A DNA stretch of 64,000 nucleotides from Planctomycetaceae bacterium (GTDB lineage: Bacteria; Planctomycetota; Planctomycetia; Pirellulales; UBA7805). How positions within the stretch are numbered: position 1 is the first letter of the stretch; each line of letters begins with the position of its first letter. The stretch is taken from contig CACOUL010000006.1 in assembly GCA_902630355.1 (NCBI GenBank), positions 53,057 through 117,056 of the forward strand, written 5' to 3'. The notes under the pieces are model-generated. The model saw nothing but the letters and a program-made list of their open reading frames with translations. It searched no databases and had not been told where the DNA came from. A program made the translations under genes and the position numbers. This document shows positions 28,798 to 62,566 of this stretch, one piece after another.

Positions 28798-29784
28798 CTA
28801 TCGGACCGGGCGGCGACGAGATGCAGCGGCAACCAACAGCCCCCATACGGCCAGCAGCAGGGTCGACGGTTCCGGCACCGAGGGCCCGGGATCGGGTGGA
28901 CCAGGAAAGGTGTCCATTGCGAAAACCGGCAGATGGACTTCGCCCATTTGACGGAAACTTTTCACAAAGACGCTTCCTTCCACCACCCCCTCCACGCGGA
29001 GGAAGGAATGGGGCGCCAAAAGCGAACCGTTGAAACCTCGCGAGTGTGTGTTGAGGTAGGTTGCCTCATAAAAATTCCAGAGGACACGCGAGCGGCCCGT
29101 CTCGGTGGTAAATTCTCCCACCATGTTGCCATGATTCCAGTGAATGCTGGTACCACCCACGTTAATCACCACAAAGTCTGCACTTCCCATGGTCAGGCTC
29201 ATCTGCTGAACCTTATCATTATCGAAAAGGTTGCTCCCATTGCCGATGTTGAAAAATGCCACGCCTTCCGAGTTGGGTGTGGCGGAGAAATTGACCGCGG
29301 CCGGTTGACTGCCCGGTAGCGATACGGAGTCGCCACCGAAAGAGTAAAGATAGCTGCTCAAATTCGTCATTTCACTCGACGCAGCCGCCACCTCAGCTGC
29401 CACGGTCGCGTCACCATCGACCCAGGTCGAGCCGTTATTCGCGTTGATGCCTCCGGCCACGCTCCCGCCGATCCTGGCATGCCCTGCGTTGAGATTGATC
29501 GTCGGATTGATATCGCCACCCACCAGCAGCGTGTCGACTCCACTGTAAGCGCCCGCATCGAGATGGATTCCGTAATTGGAACTCGAGTTATTAATGCCAT
29601 TGATGTCGCCGCCCACCAGCACCCGGCCCTCCACTTCGCTGCTACTACGCAGGTTGCCGGTAACCACGAGACTATAATCGTTCAGAATCGTTGCCTCAGC
29701 TGAACTGCCGCAAAGCAGCAGCACCGCGAGGGCGAAAGGGGCAGAGAGCACATCTGCCCGAAGCACCAACCACATCGACCGCAT
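28798..29784 (-). CDS. PEP-CTERM protein, choice-of-anchor A-like
   Basis: Signal peptide; ILNDYSLVVTGNLRSSSEVEGRVLVGGDINGIN; C-terminal VPEPSTLLLAVWGLLVAAASRRRPVR. Confidence 0.85.
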   Translation of the reverse strand: MRSMWLVLRADVLSAPFALAVLLLCGSSAEATILNDYSLVVTGNLRSSSEVEGRVLVGGDINGINNSSSNYGIHLDAGAYSGVDTLLVGGDINPTINLNAGHARIGGSVAGGINANNGSTWVDGDATVAAEVAAASSEMTNLSSYLYSFGGDSVSLPGSQPAAVNFSATPNSEGVAFFNIGNGSNLFDNDKVQQMSLTMGSADFVVINVGGTSIHWNHGNMVGEFTTETGRSRVLWNFYEATYLNTHSRGFNGSLLAPHSFLRVEGVVEGSVFVKSFRQMGEVHLPVFAMDTFPGPPDPGPSVPEPSTLLLAVWGLLVAAASRRRPVR

Positions 29785-30051: not shown

Positions 30052-30444
30052 GTGACGCAAGAGATGCAAGAAGCGCCTGAACCTCAACTGGCCGACAGAG
30101 AATTCATCGGCGCATCGATGGTGATCGGCGCGGTGATCACCCTCGCGATTGTGTCGATTTGGGGCGGACCATTACTCGCCCTTGCGCCGCACCCCGTCTT
30201 GGCCGATCTGCCGTGGCTCATCATCTGGCTTACTGCAACCTTTGCGGCCCGCATCGCCATCCGGCGATCGGTCACACTCCGGCAGATTGTTCATTCCTGT
30301 AGTGAGAAAACCTATGGTCGGGTTCTCTCCGATCGGGCGGCAGACCGTGTTGAACGGTTGCTGCGCATTCTGCTGCGGGCCGCCATTCTGATCGTTTGCG
30401 TGGCGATCACTCTCGGGGTGGTGGTTGTGGCTTTTTGCGATTAA
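30052..30444 (+). CDS. small membrane protein of unknown function
   Basis: 130 aa with three hydrophobic segments (VIGAVITLAIVSIWGGPLL, LPWLIIWLTATFAARIAI, AAILIVCVAITLGVVVVAF). Confidence 0.55.
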   Translation: MTQEMQEAPEPQLADREFIGASMVIGAVITLAIVSIWGGPLLALAPHPVLADLPWLIIWLTATFAARIAIRRSVTLRQIVHSCSEKTYGRVLSDRAADRVERLLRILLRAAILIVCVAITLGVVVVAFCD

Positions 30445-31076
30445 GCCGATCGACCACTTCGCATTCCCGACAACATCAGACCCAACACCGCCAGCAGCAG
30501 GGTCGCCGGTTCAGGCACCGCCGGGTTGCCATTCACCCGCAACGCGTACATCTCATCGTCCGGCCGGAGGTTCCAGGCATTGCCGTTGCTCTGCCCGGCC
30601 GTCAGCCCGAACGCACCTTGGTTATTGAAAAGCCAGGACCCATCGAAGCCGCCCTGAGCATCGGCGATGACCCAGTAATCGGTGTTGGCCGCCAGTAATA
30701 CTGATCCCGCATCCTGCACCGTAATCGCCTGATCGCCCGGCGTGGTGATCGAGTAGGGCATCGTGAGCAGCACGGCACCCGGGGCGCCCGAATTATCATC
30801 GGCCACCACTACGTTGACGCTCGAGGGAGCAAACGGGGAAGCGGGCGTGTCGCGCACGCCGAGACCCAGCACAACATCGGTCAGGTAGTGGGCCGTGGGC
30901 CCCACACTGAAAGAAGCCGCCTGATTGATATCGCCAAAGGAGATATTGTCGGGCCCCGTGAGGATTCTACCACCGGCTGAGAATGTATCGCCGGGGCCCA
31001 AGTTGTTGTAAACGACATCGGCAGAGGCTGAGGAGGTGGCAAAAGCCACCAGAAGAAACACTACCGCTGAGCGCAT
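30441..31076 (-). CDS. PEP-CTERM protein, choice-of-anchor R-like
   Basis: MRSAVVFLLVAFATSSASADVVYNNLGPGDTFSAGGRILTG...; C-terminal AVPEPATLLLAVLGLMLSGMRSGRSA. Confidence 0.85.
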   Translation of the reverse strand: MRSAVVFLLVAFATSSASADVVYNNLGPGDTFSAGGRILTGPDNISFGDINQAASFSVGPTAHYLTDVVLGLGVRDTPASPFAPSSVNVVVADDNSGAPGAVLLTMPYSITTPGDQAITVQDAGSVLLAANTDYWVIADAQGGFDGSWLFNNQGAFGLTAGQSNGNAWNLRPDDEMYALRVNGNPAVPEPATLLLAVLGLMLSGMRSGRSA

Positions 31077-31370
31077 GAGCCGGCCTCGCAAAAGGACTGT
31101 GCAATCTCCTTAGTCTAATGGAATTACTTGATGTTTCAAGCAATTTTTCACATCGGTTTTTCCTCAAAACGTTCGCGACACCTCGCGCCGTTGCTGGTTT
31201 CTTTTTAACGAGCAGTGCTGATAGCGGATCGAGAGTCGAACCGAATGCGAGCACAAGACGATGGAAAATTCCGATGCGAGCAGGGGAAGCTGGAGAACGT
31301 GTTGCCCACCGATGAAGATCTTACCGTCGCGCTGGGCGCTGGGACTGGAGAGTGCCATCGGGCCTCCCTT

Positions 31371-57580: not shown

Positions 57581-59497
57581 ATGGAAAACCCTTCCCCCCA
57601 GCGACCGGATGCCCCTCCGCCGAAGTCCGCACCGTCTGCAACGACGATTATTTTCATTTGCGTCTTGGCGCTCGCTGCGGTTGCGATCTTTACGATGCAG
57701 GGTTCGCAGCCTGAAGAAATCCCCTACAACGAATTCTGGAAAGAACTTCAGGCGGGCAATATTGCCGAAGTCGAAATCGACAACCAGCGTGTCATCGGCA
57801 AATTCAAGAAAACGGGCGATTCGAAGAAAGCAAAGTCTTTTGCGACAGTTCTCACGCCCTTCGGAGGCACTGAACTTGATAAAGAATTGCGGAAGCAAGG
57901 GGTCGTCATTCGTTCAATCCCTCCGCAGGACAGCACGTTTTTAGTGATGTTCGTGTACCTCTTCGTGACCGTGCTTCTATTTGTCGTGATCTGGGTCATG
58001 TTCCGCAGAGCCCGGGACCAATTCATGGGCGGCGGCGGCCTTCTCTCCGGTTTCACCAAGAGCAATGCGCAGAAATACGACGGCGATAAGCAGGCAATCA
58101 CATTCAAAGACGTGGCGGGACTCGAGGGTGTCAAACTGGATCTGCAAGAAGTCATCGAATTTTTAGAAGATCCCAAAAAGTTCCAACGACTCGGCGGCCG
58201 CGTGCCAAAGGGGGTGCTGCTCAACGGCCCTCCGGGAACCGGCAAAACACTTCTGGCGAGAGCGGTAGCAGGAGAGGCGGGCGTTCCCTTCTTCTCCATC
58301 AACGGTTCGGAGTTCATCCAGATGTTTGTGGGCGTCGGAGCCAGTCGAGTCCGAGATCTGTTTAAGACGGCGAAGGACGCATCCCCCGCCATTCTATTCA
58401 TCGATGAAATTGATGCGGTCGGCCGGCATCGAGGGACAGGATTAGGTGGCGGGCACGATGAGCGGGAACAAACGCTCAATCAAATCCTCAGTGAGATGGA
58501 TGGATTTGAACCCAACGAGTCGGTGATTGTGATGGCCGCGACCAATCGACCCGATGTGCTCGACCCGGCACTGCTGCGTCCGGGCCGTTTCGACCGGCAC
58601 GTCACGGTGGATCGCCCCACCCAGAAGGGCCGCGTTGAAATTTTTGGCGTACACGTACGCGATGTGCCCCTGGCGGACAACGTCGACCTGGAAAAGTTGG
58701 CTGCCGGTTCAATCGGGCTCACGGGTGCTGATATTCGAAACCTTGTCAACGAGGCGGCGCTCTGGGCAACGCGACACGACAAGCAAAGGGTCGAAATGGC
58801 GGACTTTGAATATGCCCGCGACAAAATTTTAATGGGGGCCAAGAGAGAAGAGGTCCTCTCGGAAAAAGAAAAAGAGATGACTGCCTATCACGAGGCAGGA
58901 CACGCACTTTTGGCATGGCTGCTTCCCGGGTGCGACCGCCTCCACAAAGTAACCATCATTCCGCGAGGAAGGGCACTGGGCGTGACTCAGCTACTTCCGG
59001 AGGAGGACAAACTCAACATTTCTGAGGACGACCTCCTTTCGCGTTTGGTATTTATTCTCGGAGGTCGTGCAGCGGAGAAAATGATCTACGACCAATATAG
59101 CGCGGGCGCCGAAAATGATCTTTCTCAGGCGACTAGCTTGGCACGTAAGATGGTCGCTCATTGGGGCATGAGCGAACGGTTGGGACCGGTGGCGTATCAT
59201 CTGGGTGAGGAACATCCTTTTCTGGGCAAGGAAATTCACGAACAGCGACAATTCAGCGAACATACGGCTCAGTTGATCGACGAGGAGGTCGCCACGCTGC
59301 TGCATCGCTCAGCCGACACGGCCAAAGAAATGCTCGAAAAGAACCGCGACAAATTAGTCGCTCTCGCCGAGGCTCTCGTGGAGCGCGAAATCCTGGATGA
59401 TGCGGAAATTGCCGAATTAATCGGCCCCGCCGCCGTCGATCAAGGGTCGGACCACGCAGCGACTGAAATCCCTTCGCCCTCCGAAACGTCTTCCTAA
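57581..59497 (+). CDS. ftsH: ATP-dependent zinc metalloprotease FtsH
   Basis: [64 protein letters not shown] (HExxH). Confidence 0.97.
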
Positions 59498-59524: not shown

Positions 59525-59857
59525 ATGCTAGGACACTATGTTTTTTTTCAGCTCGAAGACTCTTCTCAAGACGCGGTCGAAAAGTTGGTTCAATCGGCTG
59601 AAACGTTGCTTTCCCCCAGTGATGGAATCGTATTTTTTGCTTGCGGGGAACGCACCGCCGATTTGACGCGGGCAGTGAACGACACTCAATTTGAGGTCGG
59701 TCTGCAAATCGTCTTCCGCGATCGTGCGGCGCACGACCGCTATCAGGAAGCGCCGGAACACTTAGAATTTATCGAGAAAAACAAAACCAATTGGGCTCAA
59801 ATCCGCGTTTTTGACATCGATCTTCCGAGTCATCACGCTCCCTCGTCAACCGCGTAA
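59525..59857 (+). CDS. Dabb (stress-responsive alpha/beta barrel) family protein
   Basis: MLGHYVFFQLEDSSQDAVEKLVQSAETLL...VGLQIVFRDRAAHDRYQEAPEHLEFIE. Confidence 0.85.
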   Translation: MLGHYVFFQLEDSSQDAVEKLVQSAETLLSPSDGIVFFACGERTADLTRAVNDTQFEVGLQIVFRDRAAHDRYQEAPEHLEFIEKNKTNWAQIRVFDIDLPSHHAPSSTA

Positions 59858-59884: not shown

Positions 59885-60874
59885 TTGGTCCACTTGTCGA
59901 AAATTCTAAACCATTGTTTCCGCACGGTTGGCAAATCTCGATTGGTTCTCGTTGGCGGGCCGGTTTTTCTCCTGGCAATCGAAGTCATTATTTTGACGCC
60001 GTTGGTTGAGTTCGCGTCCGGATGGATGGCGTATCTCGCAAACCCGAAACTCTGCAGTGCACTGTTTCTTGGCATGGCTCTGTTTATCTTGCTGAGTATT
60101 TCAGACCTGGAGGTGTCCTCGCGGGTACGAAACCCAAAGTATGCGATACTGTGGCTCCTCGTGAACCTCGGGTGCTTCTATTACCTGATTCAACTATCCC
60201 TCAAACTGGTCGCGGCCGATCGTAAAGAAGGCATTGCCTGGTTTGAGGCGGCCGGTTGGCTCATAGTCGTTTCGTTCACCGGTATCTCGGCAATCCTTAC
60301 ATTTTTACCTTTCTCGTCAATCATCGCATGGATGCAACACTCGTGGCATAAGGCGATCGGCGTGATCATCCTGGCCATCAATTTTGTTCTGCTCGTGCCC
60401 GACATCCAAAAGATCTGGAATGTGGCGCACCCTTCTACAATCGCGATGGCGGCAGAGGTACTCGAATCGTGCGGGCGAAAACCCGAAACCGGTCTGGCGC
60501 GAATGCACAACCCGCGCCTGGGCATCCAAGGCGAAGGAACACGACTGATCGTGACTCGCTATTGTGCTGAGATGGAGTCGCTCGCGACCTTTCTTTTGAT
60601 CGCCCTGGTACTATGCATCGCTTATCTACCGAGAATACGCTGGCTACCCTGGCTGACAATCGTCTCCGTGGGTCTCGGCTCAATCTATTTTTTCAATGCG
60701 CTCCGCATTGCCGCACTGGTTGAAATCGCTGGCACCTGGGGAAATCCGCAACTGGCCGTGAACTTGGCGCACTCGCGGTTGTCGGGGATTTTTTTTCTGG
60801 GATTCTCCATCACCCTCTTGATCGTCACCAGAGGCTGGTGGTGCCCTCCACCGAAGAGCGAGGAGACTCGGTGA
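59885..60874 (+). CDS. divergent exosortase/archaeosortase-like integral membrane protein
   Basis: Multi-TM; RYCAEMESLATFLLIA (C227), IYFFNALRIAALVEIAGTWG (R274), LAVNLAHSRLSGIFFLGFSI (H296), the order expected for the exosortase core. TTG start. Confidence 0.7.
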   Translation: MVHLSKILNHCFRTVGKSRLVLVGGPVFLLAIEVIILTPLVEFASGWMAYLANPKLCSALFLGMALFILLSISDLEVSSRVRNPKYAILWLLVNLGCFYYLIQLSLKLVAADRKEGIAWFEAAGWLIVVSFTGISAILTFLPFSSIIAWMQHSWHKAIGVIILAINFVLLVPDIQKIWNVAHPSTIAMAAEVLESCGRKPETGLARMHNPRLGIQGEGTRLIVTRYCAEMESLATFLLIALVLCIAYLPRIRWLPWLTIVSVGLGSIYFFNALRIAALVEIAGTWGNPQLAVNLAHSRLSGIFFLGFSITLLIVTRGWWCPPPKSEETR

Positions 60875-60925: not shown

Positions 60926-62311
60926 CTATTCTGCTTTCTCTCCCGACTGAGACTTCATGTCGGCAGCGATTTTGGCTTTCAGTTGCTCTGCATCCCGCCG
61001 AAAAACAAAGAGTCCCTCTGTGGCGAGCGCCGTTTCAAGAAGAGGTAGCACCTTATCCCCGCGCACCTCGTCAGCCAGAACATAGGCAAAAATATAATTG
61101 ATATTGGGGTCACTGGTCGTATGCTGTGCTGCCTGAAGGGTCGCGAGCGCTTTCTCATTATTGCCGGCACGCTTATGCGCATAACATGAGGCAACAAGTG
61201 CCTCCAAATCGGCCCTGGAGTCTGCCGAGGTGATCGCGTCTTGGATTCCCTCTTTTGTGCCCTCTGCCGCGAGTGCGTAGAGCAGATGCTGGTCGGCAAT
61301 TTTTTGGATGGCCGCGGGTGCGGTGGAGTCCTTATCGACCAGTTTCTTAAAGTGCGTTATCGCTTTGTCGAAATTGTGATTGTAATGAGACATTTGACCA
61401 GCCAGCAGATTTGCTTGCGGATTATCTTCGGCTAAGCGGAGCGCCTGGGCAATGCTTTTTTTTGCTTCCGCGAATTGTCTCATATCCCAATGAAATTTCG
61501 CCAGCATCAGTTGGGTATCGAGATCTTCCGATTGCTGATTCGACGCTCGCTCAAGCCATTGGCGACCCGCTTCCATATTGCCCGCTTCCATCCAGAATTG
61601 CGCCATCAGAATCGATGGCGACAAGATCTTTGGATCGATTTTCTTTGCGCTTCGCAGTTCCCCGATCGCTTCGCGGCCTCGATTGTTCCGAAACAACGAT
61701 CGCGCGTAACGCACGCGGGCGCTGCTATTCTGTGGATCGAGGTTTACCCATTCCCTGAGGTAAGGATTGGCGGTCTGCCAGTCGTCGAATCGCTCGGCCA
61801 ATGTTGCGAGTCCCGCGTAAAGTCGCAGTTGCAATCTTTTCAAACGCATCGAATCCCCATCGTAGGACTCGAGCAGGGTACGACCTTTTTCAAAATTAAG
61901 CGACGAATCGGTGTTGCGATTCTGGTCTAAAGCCAGATTGCCCAATAGGAGAAATGTTTCAGGATCGTCGGGATATTTTCTCGCGGCCGTATCGAGGGCA
62001 TTGACCGCTCGGTCCATCCGGCTTTGCTTGAGATAGAGCATTGCCATAATGATTTCGGAGGGCGGCAACTCCGGATACTTGTTCGCGGCGGCCTCAAATT
62101 TCTCCATGGCATCGGCGCGGTCGTTCTTCCTGAACGCGAGGACCCCCTCCTGGACCTCCGAGTATTTCTTCGACCAACCGTCGGTATCAACCGCCATGGT
62201 CGCCCGCTCAGCATCCTGACCGCGAGCATCAAATGGCTCGACCAGACCGAGGCTGCAAATCGTGAAGCCCACCAGGAACGATTGCAAAATAATCCGTGAT
62301 TTCGATTGCAT
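60926..62311 (-). CDS. TPR-repeat protein, exported
   Basis: Signal-like MQSKSRIILQSFLVGFTICSLGLVEP; repeated helical TPR segments (AMLYLKQSRMDRAVNALDTAARKYPDDPETFLLLGNLAL). Confidence 0.8.
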   Translation of the reverse strand: MQSKSRIILQSFLVGFTICSLGLVEPFDARGQDAERATMAVDTDGWSKKYSEVQEGVLAFRKNDRADAMEKFEAAANKYPELPPSEIIMAMLYLKQSRMDRAVNALDTAARKYPDDPETFLLLGNLALDQNRNTDSSLNFEKGRTLLESYDGDSMRLKRLQLRLYAGLATLAERFDDWQTANPYLREWVNLDPQNSSARVRYARSLFRNNRGREAIGELRSAKKIDPKILSPSILMAQFWMEAGNMEAGRQWLERASNQQSEDLDTQLMLAKFHWDMRQFAEAKKSIAQALRLAEDNPQANLLAGQMSHYNHNFDKAITHFKKLVDKDSTAPAAIQKIADQHLLYALAAEGTKEGIQDAITSADSRADLEALVASCYAHKRAGNNEKALATLQAAQHTTSDPNINYIFAYVLADEVRGDKVLPLLETALATEGLFVFRRDAEQLKAKIAADMKSQSGEKAE

Positions 62312-62566
62312 CTTCCAACTCCGCATATTGCCCTCCCCACGCGTTCTTGCGAGTCTGCACTTATAATATCGGCATTCCGGTGGTGCAGTGTCAACTCATT
62401 TCTCGACAGGAAAAATAGCACTTTGCAACCGGCAATCTGCTTACCGACAAAGGGGAATTGCCGAAGCAGCCCTTGAGACAATGCTTCGTTTTCTCTGCTA
62501 GAATACGCGGGTAAAGATTAGCGACTCTCCCGGATCGACCGCACGGGCATCGCGCAGAATGGGAAT

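Follow-up and report, generated by a model that had tools for sequence, protein, structure and literature searches.

A divergent exosortase-family protein with a remodelled cysteine motif in planctomycetes of the order Pirellulales

Members of the exosortase/archaeosortase family carry a conserved Cys, Arg and His in fixed order (PMC4343526). In a 64,000-nt stretch of a Planctomycetaceae genome (contig CACOUL010000006.1, positions 53,057 to 117,056; hereafter the window), the initial annotation had read one open reading frame as an exosortase-like transpeptidase, perhaps of an uncharacterised subfamily, in which the usual motif around the Cys is replaced by CAEMES. The locus raises the question of whether this protein, here called CxE, belongs to the family and what the altered motif may mean for its function. 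The gene and its putative active-site motifs are as follows:

59885-60874, + strand: exosortase-family CxE gene, 329 aa from a TTG start whose place may shift by some codons
60563-60580, + strand: C227-A-E229-M-E231-S motif, with the putative nucleophile Cys and a clade-specific Glu at Cys+2
60695-60706, + strand: N271-A-L-R274, carrying the Asn and Arg that are invariant at the exosortase active site
60770-60778, + strand: H296-S-R298, the invariant His and a clade-specific Arg two residues after it

The frame, its strand and length, and the three motifs are as originally described. The open frame permits up to 338 aa, and in the nearest homologue (genome G001) a start is possible nine codons earlier. 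The two proteins are 95% identical, with nucleotide differences distributed over the codon positions as 15/7/40, mostly in the third, and a dN/dS of about 0.19 (0.032/0.172). The gene is under purifying selection; given the third-position bias and this ratio, it is therefore a maintained gene. A search for it in plasmid records returned just one weak chance match.

Comparison of the protein with the NCBIfam models using hmmscan revealed a match to the exosortase/archaeosortase signature TIGR04178 (31.4 bits versus a cut-off of 23, E=1.7e-7), which was also matched by all nine full-length homologues in the CxE clade. The cut-off of a named exosortase subfamily model was reached neither by any of these nine nor by the window protein. 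For the latter, archaeosortase C (TIGR03762) and XrtR scored 29.3 and 18.4 bits, far under their cut-offs of 100 and 150, respectively, and the weak profile similarity to XrtX and XrtK was likewise far under the cut-offs. The XrtE model (TIGR04162, cut-off 150 bits) did not match the window protein and found one of the nine clade members at E=0.073. PF09721 was borderline, with 26.3 versus 25.7 bits in the genome search and two of nine members matched in hmmscan, where the window protein itself gave no match.

Active-site positions were compared in 141 exosortase domains from planctomycetes, comprising 9 of the CxE clade and 132 others. All 141 domains have C227, N271 and R274, and all but two have H296 (130 of the 132 non-clade domains). 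The close homologues have thus not lost the Cys, Arg and His on which the initial annotation relied: C227, R274 and H296 stand in the order characteristic of the family and are invariant in the clade, as is the whole C, N, R, H set, across identities of 26-95%. The family's Cys-[Ser]-Gly motif, in contrast, is missing from the clade: Cys+2 (E229) is Glu in 9/9 CxE members, which read C-[AS]-E, versus Gly (C-x-G) in 132/132 others, a count that describes this sample, since the sample consists of higher-scoring matches from a single phylum and the motif finder mildly favoured G, E or A at this position. R298, two residues past H296, is present in 9/9 clade members and in 2/132 others, while Gly at position 300 is found in 126/132 other exosortases and in only one of the nine CxE sequences. 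Cys+4 (E231) is also Glu in the clade, but this is no novelty, because six other sequences, of the XrtE type or near it, read CSGxEG. Of the remodelled motif proposed initially, the Gly-to-Glu replacement at Cys+2 is therefore clade-specific, together with R298, and the second acidic residue is not new. In these alignments, the change that defines the clade is Gly to Glu at Cys+2 (E229), accompanied by R298. No explanation for the role of the Gly following the catalytic Cys-Ser was found in the literature consulted.

To describe the distribution of the subfamily, a profile built from the nine CxE sequences was run against planctomycete genomes. It found CxE genes in nine of the ten examined genomes of the window's own family and in both genomes examined from a second family in the order, one of the latter two matches being a fragment at a contig end. 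Beyond these two families, where the search covered 297 genomes from the order and 392 from the phylum, the profile gave weak matches alone, and the motifs read in them have Gly at Cys+2. On the phylogenetic tree, the CxE sequences are monophyletic (support 100/88) and lie within a 36-row group (100/99) that holds XrtE-type enzymes and two long-branch rows, far from the conventional exosortase of the same genome. Two XrtE-type rows of this group exceed the TIGR04162 cut-off, and the remaining ones are named XrtE-type by tree position. The tree carries long-branch warnings and does not settle the exact sister of the CxE clade; at the level of sequence, the subfamily falls with XrtE, the fusion of an exosortase and a CPBP protease that belongs to the VPEID-CTERM system.

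Altogether, by sequence the 59885-60874 protein is a divergent member of the exosortase/archaeosortase family that reaches no named subfamily model; it is termed divergent because membership is carried by the TIGR04178 profile, and the Gly at Cys+2 is treated here as a motif position and not as a required catalytic residue. The exosortase-like identity first proposed was thus borne out by the profile search, whose score above the cut-off does not arise by chance, and the idea of an uncharacterised subfamily gains support from the signature match, the unmatched named subfamilies, the conserved Cys, Arg and His and the single clade.

An AlphaFold2 model computed from five sequences (pLDDT 69, pTM 0.65) contains long helices compatible with eight membrane passes, versus seven hydropathy peaks, and a beta hairpin just ahead of C227. 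Judging from the helix order in this weak model, and because R250 and R252 are placed in a loop at the opposite end of the C227 helix, C227, R274 and H296 probably face the same side of the membrane, most likely the periplasmic one. Foldseek searches against the PDB and viral models gave nothing significant for the predicted fold, phmmer found no match to the protein in the PDB, and the searched copy of the PDB yielded no exosortase structure.

The genes next to the CxE gene in the window are:

57581-59497, + strand: FtsH protease, directly upstream of the Dabb and exosortase genes in genera g1, g2 and g4
59525-59857, + strand: Dabb-domain protein (PF07876), 27 bp upstream; found in the genus, whereas G006 and G008 lack it at this place
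60926-62326, - strand: secreted TPR protein, convergent with the CxE exosortase gene

These include the Dabb protein upstream and the TPR protein on the opposite strand that had been noted before, and, as also noted, an EPS locus is missing at the window gene. The gene order in the window's genus is ftsH, Dabb, exosortase and the convergent TPR gene, and the gaps of 27-51 bp around the exosortase leave no room for a small extra gene. In G006 and G008, a sigma-54-activator-type AAA gene comes next after the exosortase. The AAA protein following the CxE exosortase in two genera (L101:9701-10567 and L094:9187-9954) has no obvious DNA-binding part and is absent from this place in the window's genus. 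The block around the CxE gene is conserved over many genes, including unrelated housekeeping ones, and seems to be a stable site on the chromosome. The TPR protein was considered as a partner of the exosortase and rejected; its homologues also occur in genomes lacking the CxE exosortase, and it is therefore more likely a neighbour. The arrangement is different in G019, a member of the second family, where FtsH is not adjacent and the CxE gene precedes a conventional exosortase gene by less than 3 kb, with a NusG-type gene between them and a chain-length-determinant/kinase gene after. The two exosortases share a 5-kb stretch there beside an exopolysaccharide-type locus (L093:7104-11901, G019:C125).

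The genome of the window also encodes a conventional EpsH-type exosortase (G000:C2:79060; TIGR02602, 119 bits) and has 24 PEP-CTERM matches at E values up to 1. Two of the proteins with VPEP tails lie in the window, as the initial annotation had stated:

28798-29784, - strand: VPEP-type PEP-CTERM protein, tail VPEPSTLLLAVWGLLVAAASRRRPVR
30441-31091, - strand: VPEP-type PEP-CTERM protein, tail VPEPATLLLAVLGLMLSGMRSGRSA

A special PEP-CTERM tail subtype for the CxE enzyme was also considered and rejected, all 19 of the 19 tails read being plain VPEP. Since a conventional exosortase and ordinary VPEP tails are present in the same genome, the CxE enzyme is not needed for the VPEP proteins. No C-terminal sorting tail adjoining the CxE gene was found at the locus. 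A search for VPEID targets in the clade genomes gave no match over the cut-off or better than E=0.1, a negative result of little weight, because the same search found convincing targets in just three of six XrtE-type control genomes. For the non-PEP signal suggested initially, these searches gave no candidate.

The reading that we favour, with moderate confidence, from sequence and by analogy, is that CxE is a catalytically active, polytopic membrane cysteine protease/transpeptidase whose pocket is remodelled, from an unnamed subfamily grouping with XrtE, and that it most likely acts on one or a few dedicated substrates. This reading relies on the invariant residues and on what is known for archaeosortase ArtA, an enzyme with an active-site Cys and a triad like that of sortases (PMC11980579, PMC4343526). 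C227, predicted to lie where a membrane helix begins on the periplasmic side, would attack an exported protein at its C-terminal sorting tail, assisted by R274 and H296, which helix order would place on the same side, and the acyl-enzyme would be handed to an acceptor or to water. E229 and R298 probably pair their charges, replacing a glycine-lined pocket and shifting the choice of substrate or acceptor. The bulk of the VPEP proteins could be managed by the conventional exosortase, leaving one or a few dedicated substrates to CxE. Activity, the E229-R298 charge pair and the substrate difference are all three what we infer; a Glu near the nucleophile could alternatively mean lost or altered chemistry.

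It seems unlikely that CxE is instead a second, partly redundant exosortase whose targets are the VPEP-type PEP-CTERM proteins that the conventional enzyme also processes. Such overlap would fit the close spacing of the two exosortase genes and the chain-length-determinant gene in G019, as well as G003 and G006, where VPEP-tailed proteins are present and CxE is the sole TIGR04178 match. However, G003 (96% complete, 8% contaminated) and G006 (84% complete) are fragmented drafts, and for this reason the conventional gene may have been lost to assembly gaps. Moreover, the active-site motif of CxE departs from the usual one throughout the clade, which sits with the dedicated XrtE type on the tree.

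The enzyme might also have given up tail sorting and act as an exosortase-fold membrane cysteine protease that trims different membrane proteins, perhaps for quality control beside FtsH. We consider this improbable, more so than redundancy: three genera have FtsH directly upstream, and CxE could not be matched with a sorting signal, but the adjacency says little within a conserved block holding unrelated housekeeping genes, and it is not seen in G019. Least credible of all is a catalytically dead relative retained as a binding or regulatory protein. The clade has replaced two glycines that are almost universal in other exosortases, at Cys+2 and position 300; nevertheless, its putative catalytic residues are invariant even at 26% identity, in a gene kept by purifying selection.

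One could hypothesise a distinct planctomycete protein-sorting system that shares the cell with the conventional one. In it, a Glu/Arg-remodelled exosortase would recognise a C-terminal signal that is neither PEP-CTERM nor VPEID, or would use another acceptor. This proposal is tentative, and we give it somewhat less than an even chance. The clade hints that planctomycetes may have a second route for sorting and, as a natural Gly-to-Glu swap with the catalytic residues kept and a new Arg near the His, provides a handle on substrate and acceptor choice.

Among known systems, the EpsH-type exosortase G000:C2:79060 (TIGR02602, XrtA/XrtD-like) shares with CxE the common family, the C-N-R-H set and the TIGR04178 match, but it has a CSGLRM motif, belongs to a distant branch and probably serves the VPEP proteins. 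An apparent exosortase-TPR fusion was observed elsewhere (L049, G403:C1:1261105-1261713), with an exosortase-family part (CSGMEG) and a long repeat-rich TPR-like C-terminal region in one frame. The closest named group in the tree is XrtE (TIGR04162). In G026, a member of the same order, the XrtE gene is directly followed by one for a small protein ending VPEIDPGSLASAMTLVVGGALLLAGRWRLRK, whereas nothing alike lies beside the CxE gene and no VPEID target was found for CxE. This product, of about 70 aa (L203:2663 onward, G026:C72), consists of little beyond a signal peptide and the VPEID-CTERM tail. Unlike XrtE, CxE ends after the exosortase core, without a fused CPBP protease domain, and has Glu instead of Gly at Cys+2, plus the invariant R298. 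The two have the same Cys, Asn, Arg and His; in addition, the Glu at Cys+4 recurs in some enzymes of the XrtE type (CSGxEG), and the Ser that follows the His recurs in most of them. The CxE enzymes are a new, unnamed branch inside a known family, and not a new type of system.
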